Positions 1-9,914 of a stretch of 64,000 nucleotides of DNA are shown piece by piece (positions within the stretch are counted from its first letter, which is position 1; each line of letters begins with the position of its first letter). The notes beneath the pieces were generated by a model. The model saw only the letters and a program-made list of their open reading frames with translations, was not told the origin of the DNA and searched no databases. The stretch comes from an uncultured Cellulophaga sp. (GTDB taxonomy: Bacteria; Bacteroidota; Bacteroidia; Flavobacteriales; Flavobacteriaceae). Location of the stretch: NCBI GenBank assembly GCA_947492955.1, contig CANLOV010000009.1, positions 124,001 to 188,000 of the forward strand, read 5' to 3'. The translations under genes and the position numbers were made by a program.

Positions 1-393
1 TCACCAAAAACCATTACCAATGTTATAGATGTTGATGGTTTAACTAACGGAAAAGCCTATAGTTTTAAGTTATTTGCTTTAAATGATAAAGGAATAAGTA
101 AACCTTCGGAAACAAAGCAAGTAACACCAAATAGTAAACCATTACCACCCATAATTTGGGATGCATTTATAGCAGATAATAAATTGGTTATTGGATACTC
201 AAGTGATTTTGAAGATGAGGATTATACAGTAGTCTATGGTACATCTAAAGATAATTTAGATAAACATTTTACATCTAACGTTAGAGGTATGATGTCTATT
301 GATTTAAATGATGAAAACGATATTTATTTTAAAATAAAGAGGGTTTCTAATACTAAAGAAAGCAATTGGTCTCAAATTATAAAAGTTAACTAA
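1..393 (+). CDS. C-terminal part of a fibronectin type III protein (5' truncated by window)
   Basis: Frame 1 is open from the first base and gives about 130 residues with no start visible, so this is the tail of a longer protein. Two beta-sandwich modules can be read: one ending in a typical FN3 pattern (DGLTNGKAYSFKLFALND, then a linker) and a second from about residue 47 to the end. Such FN3 tails commonly close secreted glycoside hydrolases and binding proteins in Bacteroidota polysaccharide loci. Its stop overlaps the start of the GH16 gene by one base (TAATG), so they are co-transcribed. The catalytic part, if any, lies left of the window and its function cannot be stated. Confidence 0.75.
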   Translation, partial: SPKTITNVIDVDGLTNGKAYSFKLFALNDKGISKPSETKQVTPNSKPLPPIIWDAFIADNKLVIGYSSDFEDEDYTVVYGTSKDNLDKHFTSNVRGMMSIDLNDENDIYFKIKRVSNTKESNWSQIIKVN

Positions 394-1688
394 TGAATAA
401 AATAAATATCCATTTTGTTATCATATTTTTTTCAGTGTTATCATCATTGTACGCACAGAATTCGGAAAAGAATCAGACATCTATTTTAGAGAATTATGAG
501 CAATTAGATTTTAGTAATTGGAAACTAATATGGCAAGACGAATTTGATTATTCGGATAAAGAATTAGATAAAAAATGGATTTCGCAAAATGGCCCAACAG
601 AACACGTTTTGGTAGCTTGCAGTCGTTGGAGAGAAAATGCTGTTGTACAAAACGGTATTCTGGAACTTGTTATAAAAAAAGAAACAAGAGGAGGGCAGGA
701 TTGGACGGCAGGTAATGTTTGGACAAAGAAAACATTTGATTATGGATACTTTGAGGCTAGGTATAAGTATGCAGCTGCACCCGCAACTAATAACTCCTTT
801 TGGTTATGGCCCAAATTTAAACTAGCTAAAGGAGAAAAGGCTTGTGAAGTCGATATTAATGAAGGGCACTTTCCTAGTATCATAAATACGAATGTACATA
901 ACTGGACAGATTTTGATACAGCTCCTAATGGGAGAAAAACACATTCGAGTAATCAGCTACATCATACACTCACCGCAGAGCCATTACATGAAGTAGAGTT
1001 GAAAGAAGTAGTAAAAGCCAAAAAAATTAGACTAATTTCATCAACACCCAAATCAATTCAAATAAGCGAATTACGCATTTTTGGAACATCAATCAAGAAC
1101 TTTCCAAATAGCAATAAGCCATTACCAGAACATATCGAAAATTTAGTGGCTAGTAATGATGTTACCATTACGACAAACGGAAATAATTCCAATGCTTTAA
1201 AATCAGAACCCGGTTTTGTAGCAGATAATCGTTTAGATACCAGATGGGTATCGAGAAACTCTGGAGATAAGTGGATAGAATTTGAATGGGATGCAGATAA
1301 AGAAATAAAAAGCATTCAGTTTATAAATGGTTGGCTGCAAAATGATGGCATGTCAAGAAACCTTATAACAGATTATAAAATACAAGTGTTCGAAAATAAC
1401 ATTTGGAAAACAATTCATGAGTACAATTTATCTGAAACATCAAACTTCGGAGAAGAATATCATACCTATGGCTTAGAGTGGGATGAAGATTATTTTAAAT
1501 TCTATTTTGATGGTAAGCTATATTATACAATGCGCAATACGGTTTGTTTTAGCGAAACTAATATCTTGTTTAGTTTGGCAATTTTAAAAAACAATTATTC
1601 TGGCCCTATTGCAGATGATTTAGATGGAAAAAGCATGAAAATAGATTATGTAAGATATTATAATCGAAAAAGTGGAACAACAAACTAA
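393..1688 (+). CDS. Secreted GH16 family endo-hydrolase with an inserted, apparently permuted discoidin-like domain
   Basis: A signal peptide (residues 1-21, ending LYAQ) precedes a GH16 jelly-roll beginning near WQDEFD at 48-53. The GH16 catalytic motif ExDxxE is present as E152, D154, E157. At about 192-347 the fold is interrupted by a block resembling F5/8 type C (discoidin/CBM32-like) sequence, after which GH16 resumes with EEYHTYGLEW at 354-363. Within the insert, the part resembling a discoidin C-terminus (199-232) comes before the part resembling its N-terminus (247-345). GH16 enzymes cleave beta-1,3 or beta-1,4 galactans and glucans; the neighbouring GH117 and GH2 genes favour a galactan such as agar, porphyran or carrageenan. 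Exact specificity is not readable. The stop of the upstream gene overlaps the start. Confidence 0.85.
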   Translation: MNKINIHFVIIFFSVLSSLYAQNSEKNQTSILENYEQLDFSNWKLIWQDEFDYSDKELDKKWISQNGPTEHVLVACSRWRENAVVQNGILELVIKKETRGGQDWTAGNVWTKKTFDYGYFEARYKYAAAPATNNSFWLWPKFKLAKGEKACEVDINEGHFPSIINTNVHNWTDFDTAPNGRKTHSSNQLHHTLTAEPLHEVELKEVVKAKKIRLISSTPKSIQISELRIFGTSIKNFPNSNKPLPEHIENLVASNDVTITTNGNNSNALKSEPGFVADNRLDTRWVSRNSGDKWIEFEWDADKEIKSIQFINGWLQNDGMSRNLITDYKIQVFENNIWKTIHEYNLSETSNFGEEYHTYGLEWDEDYFKFYFDGKLYYTMRNTVCFSETNILFSLAILKNNYSGPIADDLDGKSMKIDYVRYYNRKSGTTN

Positions 1689-2838: not shown

Positions 2839-4590
2839 ATGAAAAAAATAGTTTATTTATTCATTTTTGTAGTGGCACTGTACAGCTGTAATAAAGAGGA
2901 GCAACCACAAGAACTAAAACCAGTTTCATTGAATGGTAACTGGCAATTTTTAGCTTCCAATTCAATTAATGAAGAGGAGCTTTTTAAAGCATCATATAAC
3001 CAATGGGATACCTTGCAAGTGCCGGGGAATTGGGATACCCGTGAGCGTTATTCAGAATATGTTGGAAAAGGATATTATCAAAAAACATTCAGCCTACCAA
3101 AAAACTGGAAAGCTAAACAAGTGAGATTAAAATTTGATGCTGTTTATGAAACTACTAAAGTTTGGTTAAATGGAGAATTATTGGGAGACCATATTGGGGG
3201 CTACACACCATTTGAGTTTAATATTACCGATAAAGTTGATTTTAATAAAGAAAACTCTGTTGTAGTTATGGCAGACAATACCTATAAACGTGGTGCTTGG
3301 TGGGCATGGGGAGGTATTAGTAGAGATGTAACTCTGATGGCTAATGATGATGTAAGATTAGTTTATCAACATATTACTTCGGTTCCAGATTTTGAAAAAC
3401 AAACCGTAGATTTTACAATTAAATATAAAGTTGAAAACAATGGAAGTACATCTGCTTCAGCTAAAATATATGCTCATATTGAAGGGATTCATAAAGATTC
3501 TCTGTCTTTAACCGTTGAAAAAGCATCAACGGCTGTCTCGTATTTAAAATTTAAAAAACCACTTTCAGATGTAAAATTATGGCATTTTAATGCACCTAAT
3601 CTTTATCAATTGAATAGTACAATTTCTATTCATACGAATGAAGTTGATACAGCTTCAGATAAATTCGGAATTAGAAAATTTGAAGTTCGTGGAGAGCAAT
3701 TCTTTCTAAATAATGAGGCTGTAAGAATGAACGGAATTAATCGTGTGCACGACCATCCAGTTTATGGCAATACAGAACCAGATGAATTGGTGTTAAAAGA
3801 CATGTTAGATATTAAATCTTTAGGCTGTAATTTTTCACGCTTAATGCATGCGCCACTCTCAAAAAACCTATTAAAAGTGTGTGATAGTATTGGCTTTTTA
3901 TTAGTAGAAGAAATTCCCGTTTGGGGAGATGATGACCCACAAACGTTTCCTGATAACCCTCTAACTAAAAAATGGATGAAAGAAATGATAGAACGTGATT
4001 ATAATCACCCATCTGTGGTTGCTTGGAGCGTGGGTAATGAGTTACGAGAGAATGATTCAATTGCAGCAACATGGCCAGAAAAAAAGATGACCAAAAATCA
4101 ATACGATTATGCAAACTCCATGTTAGATTATGTTGCGGAATTGGATTCTTCAAGATTAAAAACATACGTTACTATTACCACGTACAGAAAAGGCGAAATA
4201 GGAAGTGAACCCTATGAAAAAGTAGATTTTATATCAATGAATTCCTATGGAAGTGCAGTAGAGCTTACTAAAATAACCCATGATAAATTTCCAGGAAAGC
4301 CAATTTTTATCTCTGAAATTGGTATTGGGCAAATTGGACCTGCACCCAAAGGAAAACTACAAGATGAGCTTGTTGGATATTTAAAAAAACTAAAAGATTT
4401 ACCATATGTAACCGGTATCTCTGTTTGGAGCTACAATGATTATCGTAGTAACTATCGTGGTACACCAGAATCTGGATTTAGAGAATGGGGAATAGTAGAT
4501 GAGAAACGTAATAAAAAAGAAGCCTATAATCAGCTAAAAGAAATATATGATTATTGGAGTATAAGAGAATTAAGTAAGAATGATTTATAA
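2839..4590 (+). CDS. GH2 family exo-glycosidase lipoprotein (beta-galactosidase-like)
   Basis: Residues 1-17 form a lipoprotein signal (LYSC, Cys17). The GH2 order follows: a sugar-binding jelly roll (about 28-170, with VPGNWD and WLNGELLGDHIGGYTPF), an Ig-like domain (175-275) and a TIM barrel from about 283. The acid/base is E401 in WSVGNE and the nucleophile is E493 in PIFISEIG. At 583 residues it lacks the extra C-terminal domains of LacZ and has only the three-domain core. GH2 covers beta-galactosidases, glucuronidases and mannosidases; in this context removal of terminal beta-galactose from galactan oligosaccharides is the likeliest role, but that is inference. It ends the first tight gene group; 194 bp separate it from the aldolase gene. 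Confidence 0.88.
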   Translation: MKKIVYLFIFVVALYSCNKEEQPQELKPVSLNGNWQFLASNSINEEELFKASYNQWDTLQVPGNWDTRERYSEYVGKGYYQKTFSLPKNWKAKQVRLKFDAVYETTKVWLNGELLGDHIGGYTPFEFNITDKVDFNKENSVVVMADNTYKRGAWWAWGGISRDVTLMANDDVRLVYQHITSVPDFEKQTVDFTIKYKVENNGSTSASAKIYAHIEGIHKDSLSLTVEKASTAVSYLKFKKPLSDVKLWHFNAPNLYQLNSTISIHTNEVDTASDKFGIRKFEVRGEQFFLNNEAVRMNGINRVHDHPVYGNTEPDELVLKDMLDIKSLGCNFSRLMHAPLSKNLLKVCDSIGFLLVEEIPVWGDDDPQTFPDNPLTKKWMKEMIERDYNHPSVVAWSVGNELRENDSIAATWPEKKMTKNQYDYANSMLDYVAELDSSRLKTYVTITTYRKGEIGSEPYEKVDFISMNSYGSAVELTKITHDKFPGKPIFISEIGIGQIGPAPKGKLQDELVGYLKKLKDLPYVTGISVWSYNDYRSNYRGTPESGFREWGIVDEKRNKKEAYNQLKEIYDYWSIRELSKNDL

Positions 4591-4784: not shown

Positions 4785-5711
4785 ATGATAAAAATGGAGA
4801 CTAAACCCCAACTAAAAGGTATTTTGCCTGTTATACCTACACCTTTTAAGGAAGATATGTCGGTAGACAAGGCTTCCATAAAAAAAGTCACTTCATTTTG
4901 TATTGAGTCTGGTGCCAGTGCATTAGTATTTCCCGGTGTTGCGAGTGAGTACGATTTTCTGAGTTCAGCAGAACGATTAGAGTTGTTAGAAGCAATATAT
5001 GAAGTAAACCAGGGTAGATTGCCTATAATTTGCGGAGGAGGAAAAGGTAGCGCTGAAGAAATAGGAGAAAACATCCTAAAATCAGAAAAGTTTGGAGTAC
5101 ATGCCGTTATGGTACTCATTCCAAAGCAGTTTAAAGATGATATTGATGGAGCTACCAATTTTATGAAAACGGTATCTGAAATAGCACCAAATGTTGATGT
5201 AATTCTTCAAAATGCGCCATTTCCAATTGGAGCAGGGCTAGAGCCAGAGGCTATTTGTAAAATAGCACAAGAGGTAAAACAAATAAAATATGTAAAGGAA
5301 GAAACACTCCCTTCTGGTTCTAAGATTAGCAAGCTTATTAAAAACGCTCCATCGCACGTAATAGGAGTTATCGGGGGAGGCGGAGCCAGGTATGTTATTG
5401 ATGAAATGAATAGAGGTGCAGTTGCGGCTATGCCAGCTGCCGAAATCACTGATCTTCATGTAGCAATTTGGAATGCTCATAAAAACGGAGATATAGAAAC
5501 AGCTAGAACAATTTATAGAGACTCACTACCCTTACTTATAATACAAGCCGTTTATAGAATGCGTTTAACCAAATACGTATTTACGCTGAGAGGTATTTTT
5601 AAAAATTCAATAGTAAGAGCACCACTTCCAGAATTAGACGAATTAGATAAAAAAGAATTAAAGTATCAGATAGAAGTTCTTTCAAAATACTTTAAAAAAG
5701 AGCTAGTATAA
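4785..5711 (+). CDS. DHDPS/N-acetylneuraminate lyase family aldolase or dehydratase
   Basis: This is a 308-residue class I (Schiff-base) enzyme of the dihydrodipicolinate synthase family. The lysine is K171 in YVKEE. The family's GTTGE motif is replaced by GVASE (51-55), and the tyrosine of the usual YNxP motif is replaced by glutamine (Q142 in LQNAP), so it is not a DapA. Members with such changes include 2-keto-3-deoxy sugar acid aldolases and dehydratases. It is followed with a 1-bp overlap by the enolase-superfamily gene, so the pair probably acts in sequence: sugar acid dehydration or cycloisomerisation, then cleavage or dehydration of the 2-keto-3-deoxy acid. The substrate is inferred from context. 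A second in-frame ATG lies at 4794. Confidence 0.8.
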   Translation: MIKMETKPQLKGILPVIPTPFKEDMSVDKASIKKVTSFCIESGASALVFPGVASEYDFLSSAERLELLEAIYEVNQGRLPIICGGGKGSAEEIGENILKSEKFGVHAVMVLIPKQFKDDIDGATNFMKTVSEIAPNVDVILQNAPFPIGAGLEPEAICKIAQEVKQIKYVKEETLPSGSKISKLIKNAPSHVIGVIGGGGARYVIDEMNRGAVAAMPAAEITDLHVAIWNAHKNGDIETARTIYRDSLPLLIIQAVYRMRLTKYVFTLRGIFKNSIVRAPLPELDELDKKELKYQIEVLSKYFKKELV

Positions 5712-6874
5712 TGAACAAAATAAAAAAAGTAGAAGCTTTTACATTAACAATACCTAGAGACAAACCTTATTTAGGAGATGCTAAAAAAGGAGAAGAAGCA
5801 AATGAAAAAGGCTATTTTGTTCGTAGTGGTAATAAAACAGTATACGCTACTGTAGATAGAACGGTTATAGTAAGAATAGAAACGGACTCTGGAATAGTTG
5901 GTTGGGGAGAAACGTATGGTCTTATTGCTCCAGAAGCTACCATGGCGTTGATTAACGATTTTATGGCAGATTTTGTTGAGGGTAGAGACCCTTTTGATGT
6001 GTCTGTTATTTATGAAGACATCTATAATATGATGCGTTTTCGAAAATATAGTGGCGGTTATTATCATGATGCATTAGCAGCAATAGATATTGCACTTTGG
6101 GATATCTCAGGAAAAATGGCAGGACTACCTATCGCTAAGCTATTAGGAGGTCAAAGAAGAAAAGAAATTCCGGCTTATGTTTCGGGTTTACCAGAATCAA
6201 CATTAGAAAAAAGAGTAGAATTAGCAGTTTCATGGAAAGATAAAGGTTTTAACAGTTTTAAATTTGCTACGCCACAAGCAGGTGAGGATTTAAGCAAAGA
6301 AATGGAAACTTTAAGAAACGCATTGGGGGTTTCTACTAAAATTGCTTGTGATATGCATTGGAATCAAACTTCAGCAGAAGCAATAGCAAAAATCATTCAG
6401 ATGGAACCTTATAATCTATGGTTTGCAGAAGCTCCTACAGCTACCGAAGATATAAAAGGACTTTCCCACATAGCCCGCACCGTTAAAACTCCTATTGCTG
6501 TCGGGGAAGAATGGCGAACAGTATATGATGCAGAAGCTCGAATTAATGCAGAGGCTGTCCATATTGTTCAACCAGAAATGGGACATGTTGGTATTACACA
6601 ATTTATGAGAATAGGGTTAGCAGCTCAATTTCAAAATTTGAGTATAATACCTCACGCAACCATAGGTTCCGGTATATTTTTGGCCGCAAGTTTACAAGCC
6701 AGTTCTGCTTTAGAAGGCATAAAATCTCATGAGTATCAACATACTATATTTGATAGAAACCAACATTTAATAACTGAAGGCATAGAAGTAAAAAAAGGGA
6801 TGTATAATATTACCGACAAACCTGGTTTGGGTATAGAACCTACTCCATATACAATTTCGCAATTAAAAAAATAA
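5711..6874 (+). CDS. Mandelate racemase/enolase superfamily sugar-acid dehydratase or cycloisomerase
   Basis: At 387 residues it has the enolase-superfamily capping domain (to about 130) and barrel. Metal ligands D214 (CDMHW), E240 (WFAEAP) and E266 (VGEEW) are visible, as are K184 in the second-strand position and H315 in IPHATIGSG, the usual general base of the D-galactonate dehydratase-like groups. Known members in algal galactan pathways include 3,6-anhydrogalactonate cycloisomerase; others dehydrate galactonate or related acids. Sequence reading alone cannot choose among these. It overlaps the aldolase stop by one base and is 1 bp from the symporter, so the three genes form one cytoplasmic catabolic block. 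The aldose dehydrogenase expected upstream in such a pathway is absent from the window. Confidence 0.83.
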   Translation: MNKIKKVEAFTLTIPRDKPYLGDAKKGEEANEKGYFVRSGNKTVYATVDRTVIVRIETDSGIVGWGETYGLIAPEATMALINDFMADFVEGRDPFDVSVIYEDIYNMMRFRKYSGGYYHDALAAIDIALWDISGKMAGLPIAKLLGGQRRKEIPAYVSGLPESTLEKRVELAVSWKDKGFNSFKFATPQAGEDLSKEMETLRNALGVSTKIACDMHWNQTSAEAIAKIIQMEPYNLWFAEAPTATEDIKGLSHIARTVKTPIAVGEEWRTVYDAEARINAEAVHIVQPEMGHVGITQFMRIGLAAQFQNLSIIPHATIGSGIFLAASLQASSALEGIKSHEYQHTIFDRNQHLITEGIEVKKGMYNITDKPGLGIEPTPYTISQLKK

Positions 6875-8609: not shown

Positions 8610-9914
8610 ATGAAATTAACACAAGAAATTCAAAGAATTACAATGCTATCTTTATTATTTATTCTAGCTATTTCCTGTTCAGAAAGTAAACAGAAAACAG
8701 AACAAATAGCAGAAACAAAAGATAAAGGTGTTTTTCCTTTTAAAATGCCAACAGAAAAGCCAAATATTTTATTAAGCGCCTCTTCAGAACGTATGTTTGA
8801 TTATCCTACGCCTAGAGTACAGGATAATGAGCTTTTTTCTCAATTTAAATATACTCGTTTAAAAGGTTTCGATTATAGTAATGGTGATGGTACAGTTTCG
8901 CGTAGAGACCCATCACGACCAATTTTTGTAAACGGTAAATATTATGTTTGGTATACAAAGCGCCATACTAAAGTACCACCTATAGGGTGGAATCGTGCCG
9001 CAGAAGCTACAGATGAAATACCATCAACTGATTGGGATTTGTGCGATGTTTGGTATGCAACAAGCGAAGATGGTGTTACTTGGGAGGAACAAGGAGTAGC
9101 CATTTCTAGACCAGAAAAGCCAAATTCTGGTTGGCGTTCTGTAGCTACCCCAGACATATTAGTATGGAAAGGAAAATACTATTTGTATTATCAAGCATTT
9201 GATGAGCCTAGTGGTTTAAAAGGAGATTTATGCCCGGTATCTGTTTCTTATGCCGATTCTCCGGATGGTCCTTGGACACATGGCGGAGATAAGGTAATTC
9301 CTTTTGGAAAAGAAAACGAATGGGATCATAAAGCAACTCATGATCCACAGCCTATTGTTCACGACGGAAAAATTTATGTTTATTACAAAGCTGCCTATAA
9401 TAAGTGGCCAGATAATAGAAAAAACTATGCTGTAGGTCATGGTTTAGCTATTGCAGATGATCCTTTAGGTCCTTATGAAAAACATCCTTTAAATCCAGTA
9501 ATGCAATCTGGACATGAAACTACTTATTGGCCTTATAAAGGAGGAATAGCAACTTTAGCAATTAAAGACGGGAATGAGCGTGAAACCATACAGTATGCCG
9601 AAGACGGTGCTAATTTTAAAATAGCATCAAGTGTTTCTTTAACACCTACCGCAGCGGCGCCATTTGTAGCAGATGCATTTACAGATACCAAAGACGGTAG
9701 AGGATTTACTTGGGGCTTATCTCATTTTATAAATGCAGGAACTTCAAAAAAAGGATATTCTATTATTGCTCGTTTTGATTGCGACTTAAGTTTAGATTAT
9801 AACGAGCCTGCTTATAAAAACACAGGTGTTTGGCATAAACCAGAAGTGTATTTTGCACAAGGAGTAGGTAGTATTAATAAACATCCAGAAGGAAGGGCTA
9901 TTAAGAAGAAATAG
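8610..9914 (+). CDS. GH117 family lipoprotein (anhydrogalactosidase-type beta-propeller)
   Basis: A lipoprotein signal ends at Cys23 (LAISC). The 434-residue protein carries features I associate with GH117: RRDPS at 98-102 (candidate base D100), ATPDILVWKGKYYLYYQAF near 179-197, THDPQP at 243-248 and a GHETTYWPYKGG segment at 301-312 whose histidine and glutamate match the unusual His acid region reported for the family. GH117 enzymes release terminal 3,6-anhydro-L-galactose from agar-type oligosaccharides, though several clades have other or unknown activity. It ends the locus, directly before a 42-bp palindromic terminator. Assignment to the family is fairly firm; activity is inference. Confidence 0.82.
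   Translation: MKLTQEIQRITMLSLLFILAISCSESKQKTEQIAETKDKGVFPFKMPTEKPNILLSASSERMFDYPTPRVQDNELFSQFKYTRLKGFDYSNGDGTVSRRDPSRPIFVNGKYYVWYTKRHTKVPPIGWNRAAEATDEIPSTDWDLCDVWYATSEDGVTWEEQGVAISRPEKPNSGWRSVATPDILVWKGKYYLYYQAFDEPSGLKGDLCPVSVSYADSPDGPWTHGGDKVIPFGKENEWDHKATHDPQPIVHDGKIYVYYKAAYNKWPDNRKNYAVGHGLAIADDPLGPYEKHPLNPVMQSGHETTYWPYKGGIATLAIKDGNERETIQYAEDGANFKIASSVSLTPTAAAPFVADAFTDTKDGRGFTWGLSHFINAGTSKKGYSIIARFDCDLSLDYNEPAYKNTGVWHKPEVYFAQGVGSINKHPEGRAIKKK

Follow-up and report, generated by a model that had tools for sequence, protein, structure and literature searches.

A GH16 enzyme whose catalytic fold appears to contain a circularly permuted discoidin-like domain

The GH16 gene, its insert and its neighbors

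The window, i.e. the whole stretch of 64,000 nucleotides that was analyzed, carries on its forward strand a single open reading frame of 431 amino acids plus stop codon (393-1688), delimited by Pfam and the list of open reading frames. By its sequence the product belongs to family GH16 and is predicted to be an active GH16 enzyme. A signal-like segment was read by eye at its N terminus (residues ~1-21), and the protein is probably secreted. The Pfam GH16 profile (PF00722) scores 48.9 bits against a cut-off of 22 and does so as two separate stretches; likewise, in a phmmer search against the PDB, GH16 chains among the matches listed align at residues ~41-174 and then at ~350-425. The first part of the GH16 fold (residues ~40-189; 510-959, forward strand), delimited by PDB matches, alignment and predicted model, contains the sequence E152-V-D154-I-N-E157 (846-863, forward strand). 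E-x-D-x-x-E is the GH16 catalytic motif, and its acids E152, D154 and E157 are identical in 22/22 aligned rows. The last part (residues ~350-425; 1440-1667, forward strand) starts at HTYGLEW and is defined by the same three sources and Pfam. A Foldseek search with the predicted model recovered the beta-jelly-roll fold of GH16, the best 50 rows being laminarinases, glucanases, carrageenases, porphyranases and similar enzymes.

The two GH16 parts are separated by an insert of ~150 residues (~194-347; 972-1433, forward strand), which was delimited by alignment and is missing from one relative described below. Three segments, all on the forward strand, can be distinguished in it. Residues 196-232 (978-1088), with R213, correspond to the C-terminal end of a canonical F5/8C domain according to profile and rotation tests. 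Residues 233-246 (1089-1130) form a linker that, according to the rotation test, fuses the former C and N ends. Residues 247-345 (1131-1427), with W285, N312-G313-W314 and W338, correspond to the N-terminal part of the canonical domain, as indicated by Pfam, profile and a conserved residue triad. A preliminary description of this DNA had proposed a GH16 fold interrupted at about residues 191-348, in which the C-terminal-like piece (199-232) precedes the N-terminal-like one (247-345). The split Pfam match and the insert at 194-347 bear out the interruption, and the order of the pieces (~196-232, then ~247-345) is as it had been written.

Comparison of the window gene with its homologue L004 gave a dN/dS of 0.087 in the GH16 part and of 0.087 in the insert, which indicates purifying selection on both; when more distant members are compared, change is faster in the insert than in the rest of the protein. 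GH16 laminarinases, kappa-carrageenases and porphyranases (6jh5, 7ww4, 5ocr, 4awd) are among the top matches of the whole protein in Foldseek and phmmer, but most of these chains are listed with ~214-310 residues and are, judged by length and not chain by chain, too short for such an insert.

On the forward strand the gene is followed by a remote GH117-like enzyme assigned by Pfam to the GH43 fold family (1695-2834), by a beta-galactosidase- or glucuronidase-like GH2 enzyme that lies below the curated NCBIfam cut-offs (2839-4590), and by a GH117 enzyme (8610-9914). Relatives of the GH117-like and the GH117 enzyme were found in 16 and 13 of 17 other loci, respectively, a comparison in which the loci differ in length and some absences may reflect truncation; the locus of a 725-residue protein from genome G268 (L170) is the sole one of the 17 without either GH117-type neighbor. 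Upstream genes are read from sequence and order as SusC-, SusD- and SSS-transporter-like, together with an FAD oxidoreductase and a GH2 enzyme with Fn3. The best PDB match of the window GH117 enzyme, 4u6b (770 bits), carries no name beyond conserved hypothetical lipoprotein, and 3p2n (217 bits) is named 3,6-anhydro-alpha-L-galactosidase. Because GH117-type PDB chains bear this name, the substrate is likely an agar-like galactan of red algae. The window also encodes an enolase-superfamily enzyme (5711-6874) with 533 bits to 2ppg and 4h1z, which are named putative isomerase or enolase; as it lies inside a GH117 locus, it might serve the metabolism of anhydrogalactonate or galactonate.

Distribution of the insert and a relative without it

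Among genome contigs, 18 loci were retrieved, of which nine (L001-L009) encode full-length proteins with the insert and nine (L010-L018) are partial matches to the query; the latter were not counted as family members, and L010 and L012 served as outgroup. With E below 1e-100, matches were seen in 4/100 genomes of relatives, 7/397 of the family, 1/395 of the phylum and 2/395 of the order, samples that overlap and each include the window's own genome. Within two genera, such matches were present in 3/6 genomes of one and 3/12 of the other. The survey of GH16 homologues suggested in the preliminary description yielded 22 different insert-bearing sequences and one relative without the insert. All 22 fall in Flavobacteriaceae in the genomes sampled. 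Repeats of the window or L006 copies (L019, L020, L049, L050 and similar) were dropped, and L143 and L144 were omitted from the tree, as the L004 and L007 proteins occur in them unchanged. A search of 299 genomes of the family, with up to 12 candidates scored per genome, gave no full-length match to the insert profile outside GH16; all 11 such matches were known GH16 copies.

The same insert, at the same place and with the same order of pieces, is found in 21/21 insert-bearing rows of alignment A2, which contains one further row without insert, and in the additional sequence L141. An assembly artefact is ruled out by the identical build in several separate assemblies, and this repetition makes the order more than chance. 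Two further copies were noted. A decayed third copy with frame breaks (L075, G019:C12:156739-157503) was kept out of alignments and tree. L073 (G268 C30), with 725 amino acids, is an insert-bearing GH16 protein with a long C-terminal extension, the end of which resembles by eye a type IX secretion sorting domain.

On contig C1 of genome G303, two GH16 genes of this kind lie next to each other, and only one of them has the insert. The insert-less gene (L054:672-1454, reverse strand) encodes 261 amino acids and gives a single uninterrupted GH16 match of 67.9 bits; both the first and the second insert piece are missing. Since this relative does without it, the insert is not needed for the GH16 frame. 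A tree was calculated on GH16 columns only, with 41 rows comprising 22 with insert, one without and 18 hand-picked outgroup rows, to which a long stem of 1.31 changes per column leads from the window group. The insert-less row nests among insert-bearing rows (supports 94/98 and 93/92, slightly short of the tool's mark of 95), and its closest kin in the tree are insert-bearing copies of other genomes (L053, L021, L055), not the adjacent G303 paralogue. The first reading of this tree as a clean secondary loss was weakened by a constraint test, in which the 22 insert-bearing rows as one clade were not rejected (p-AU 0.119). The insert-less copy probably arose by loss, which from these sequences is better supported than early branching but not established.

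Evidence for circular permutation

In native order, the window protein matches PF22633 (NedA-like F5/8C) at residues 278-350, between the two GH16 stretches, with 22.0 bits and under the cut-off of 27.8. PF00754 is not listed for the window insert in native order, nor after rejoining of its pieces, and the insert was not reported in a PF00754 profile search of the window's own genome at E 0.001. In this order it lies below the curated F5/8C-type cut-offs of Pfam and NCBIfam, and some relatives pass that of PF00754 (L008 with 29.3 and G034 with 37.2 bits; cut-off 28.2). Native-order membership of another family was considered and rejected, as beyond PF22633 the insert gave only weak discoidin-type matches (PF25302, NF047619).

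When the second piece of the window insert was moved ahead of the first, the PF22633 score rose from 21.8 to 29.4 bits, over the cut-off and spanning profile positions 3-91 of 91. Rejoining of the L008 insert raised PF00754 from 29.3 bits (profile 2-82 of 127) to 40.6 bits (2-117), and the L073 insert, for which PF00754 had not been listed, reached 34.6 bits (1-114). The Pfam score increased in all three members tried; for reference, a canonical domain in a neighbor gene of L002 scores 51.6 bits. The search with a rearranged insert, advised in the preliminary description, hence brought PF22633 (window) and PF00754 (L008, L073) over their cut-offs, but not PF00754 on the window insert itself.

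A profile was made from 31 canonical domains, and 21 inserts were scored against it in all their rotations. In 20/21, the start of the best rotation lies 46-72 residues from the beginning of the insert, that is, in the linker or up to ~13 residues beyond it. With the exception of L055, the best-rotated inserts (20/21) reach profile position 134-135 of 136, whereas the native order ends at 81-96. As a control, 27/31 canonical domains came within 1 bit of their native order and the remaining four shifted by 2 to 6 residues, a lenient control since these domains trained the profile. Random shuffles of the first piece attained the real gain in 0/500 cases for the window and in at most 25/500 in 17/21 members; the gain was weak in the other four, L005, the first L021 copy, L053 and L055 (26 to 49 of 500).

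The reverse comparison gave a similar picture. A profile built from 21 natural inserts and run against the frames of the gathered loci matches 21 frames outside GH16, 18 of them in swapped order, i.e. with the second profile half ahead of the first (E 0.001). An example is the neighbor enzyme of L002, with 24.1 and then 16.5 bits. The three exceptions are L163 and L094, with a single match, and L122, with two copies of the second half. In 8/18 frames the second match is below 5 bits (-1.3 to 4.8), and the sample includes close kin (L001/L002 and L158-L165), many loci chosen for matching PF00754 or the insert profile, and matches from 10/31 loci of the PF00754 canonical set. In the PDB chain 4a42, insert-profile positions 66-164 align at 23-112 and positions 26-45 at 130-148, the latter with 0.9 bits only. 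Relative to the canonical fold, the pieces of the insert are swapped.

In a passage on discoidin domains, two tryptophans sandwiching an arginine are described as holding the fold (PMC2789033). The corresponding residues of the insert, W285, W338 and R213, are invariant in 21/21 inserts, with the arginine preceding both tryptophans along the chain. In the 31 canonical domains, the W285 column is tryptophan in 30, the W338 column tryptophan in 23 and the R213 column arginine or lysine in 30. CBM32 or F5/8 type C domains (2jd9 YeCBM32, 4a42; PF00754, PF22633) share sequence pieces and triad residues with the insert, but have the pieces in opposite order and are appended, whereas the window domain is inserted.

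AlphaFold predictions gave a pLDDT of 80.0 and a pTM of 0.76 for the full-length window protein, and 87.5 and 0.84 for the insert alone, in which the blocks holding the first piece are at pLDDT 89-97. The structure prediction called for in the preliminary description was in its favor, as the insert is modelled confidently as one domain. In the full-length model, it is located one hairpin beyond the strand that follows the catalytic strand, ahead of HTYGLEW; the place on the rim of the active-site cleft that the preliminary description had given it is putative. A Foldseek search of the insert against the PDB retrieved nothing at or below E 0.001, and the top row, a human thiol dioxygenase (E 0.0054, TMq 0.17), was taken as noise; Foldseek aligns sequentially, and poor performance with a permuted fold is to be expected in such a search. 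Against viral models it returned five matches at E 0.001, with TMq 0.56-0.63 and 143-158 alignment columns (gaps included) of the 166-residue query. Two of the five have names: an F5/8-type protein of a Bordetella phage and an F5/8C protein of a Bathycoccus virus. Because a sequential aligner covers these models in the insert's own order, the same permuted order is suggested there.

Sequence comparison and predicted structure support the insert being a permuted variant of the F5/8C (discoidin, CBM32-like) domain and not a standard member. The inserted and circularly permuted domain of the preliminary description is backed by these data and by the uninterrupted GH16 match of the insert-less relative. 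The reading we favor, with a probability of roughly 0.9, is a GH16 enzyme with a circularly permuted discoidin domain set in the loop before the HTYGLEW strand, presumably secreted and probably an endo-galactanase from a locus for red-algal galactan.

Possible function and origin of the permuted domain

In the proposed arrangement, the old ends of the F5/8C domain would be fused by the short linker, and the new ends would lie between the W338-bearing strand and the strand before R213; they would therefore emerge side by side and could be accommodated in a surface loop of the GH16 fold. Attached at two points, the insert would likely be more rigid than a domain on a tether. F5/8C domains of glycosidases often bind glycans, and by analogy the insert may bind sugar at the cleft. 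It could hold a galactan chain beside the cleft and so widen substrate contacts past the catalytic subsites, in the manner suggested by MtGlu5 and by GH16-linked F5/8C domains. A candidate sugar contact is N312-G313-W314, kept in 21, 21 and 20 of 21 inserts. A structural spacer or dimerization domain that binds no sugar is possible but less likely: the intact GH16 frame of the insert-less relative would fit such a role, whereas the conserved putative contact and the glycan binding common among glycosidase-borne F5/8C domains argue against it. One such case is a GH16-linked domain, reported in a passage of PMC2789033 to bind polysaccharides and to raise GH16 activity. As relatives with and without insert exist, adjacent to each other in G303, the effect of an inserted CBM is directly testable.

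Paenibacillus LamA combines GH16 and F5/8C like the window enzyme, but with the F5/8C domain at the C terminus (PMC2789033), and GH16_8 enzymes are described simply as linked to CBM32 (PMC6827312). Appended CBM32-like modules had been taken as the norm in the preliminary description. For CBMs as such this holds less generally, as the passages available describe a CBM29-like domain inserted in the catalytic domain of the GH5 enzyme MtGlu5, where it works in synergy with that domain (PMC9063844), a CBM4 inserted in the catalytic domain of the GH148 enzyme EngU (PMC5725463), and inserted CBMs in some xylanases (one passage; PMC9063844 / PMC5725463). MtGlu5 and EngU resemble the window enzyme in this respect, but are TIM barrels with other CBM families, and the passages on them mention no permutation. 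Circular permutation in a glycosidase is described for MalS (GH13_19), where, according to the passage, the C-domain is split around A-B-A with no inserted CBM (PMC10223318). A CBM in GH16 that is both inserted and permuted was not found in literature searches of open PMC papers. The enzyme shows how a binding module may be built into a catalytic fold instead of being appended to it.

The insert could be the phase-shifted unit remaining from a tandem F5/8C pair trimmed at both outer ends, since loss of both outer ends from such a pair would give exactly the insert's order. Tandem pairs are present in the family (L122; several frames with two matches). In addition, the neighbor enzyme at L002:5466-7787, and likewise that of L001, was observed to combine a cellulase-type Pfam CelD_N match with a canonical N-terminal F5/8C domain; the latter matches the GH16 insert in two swapped pieces better than any other frame does and is a possible source of the module.

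Permuted F5/8C domains seem to exist in phage proteins too. A 198-residue structural protein of Roseovarius sp. 217 phage 1 (P0002, L148:15744-16337) ranked 8 in Foldseek against the insert (E 0.0018) and reads with the F5/8C C-terminal strand motif first and the N-terminal part second. Pfam detects the second part only (profile 3-99 at residues 63-157), and ten phage records match P0002, three of them from its own species group, several aligning from 1-12 to 141-171 in its own order. The rotation test on P0002 gave no real gain (33.2 vs 32.8 bits); its permutation is read from the sequence, the Pfam coverage, the alignment of the phage relatives and Foldseek. A second phage frame, orf76 of Sulfitobacter phage EE36phi1 (L150:18719-21001), has the same permuted reading, again with Pfam seeing the second part only. 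Acquisition of the GH16 insert in already permuted form from a phage-type F5/8C domain, instead of permutation within the bacterial line, is nevertheless unlikely. The phage and algal-virus models do match the insert in its own order, but the window insert has no PHROGs match at E 10 and one poor tblastn phage match (E 5). Among the bacterial loci and two phage records compared, the best non-GH16 sequence matches belong to canonical domains from the window's own bacterial family. The cut in the phage proteins, judged by eye, is one strand later than that of the insert, which suggests separate permutation events. Two broken halves, with the first piece a remnant of F5/8C or GH16 and the second a truncated F5/8C domain, would account for native-order Pfam matches confined to the second piece, but are very hard to reconcile with the insert-only pTM of 0.84 and the confidently modelled first piece, with R213, W285 and W338 aligning with the canonical triad and being invariant together, and with the joint absence of both pieces from the insert-less relative.

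Returning to permutation in the bacterial line, a broader proposal is advanced only tentatively. Circular permutation may have let a discoidin domain pass from a terminus into a catalytic fold, its ends meeting at the loop to make an insertable cassette that, in a new GH16 subfamily, would here form one side of a shared substrate groove; with the phage permutation separate, the fold might be unusually prone to such events. Family searches that assume linear order under-call the permuted domain, and as the window insert lies under the curated cut-offs in native order, other permuted modules may be missed. The phage F5/8C domains of L148 and L150 possibly represent a widespread permuted discoidin type in phages that is without a name yet.
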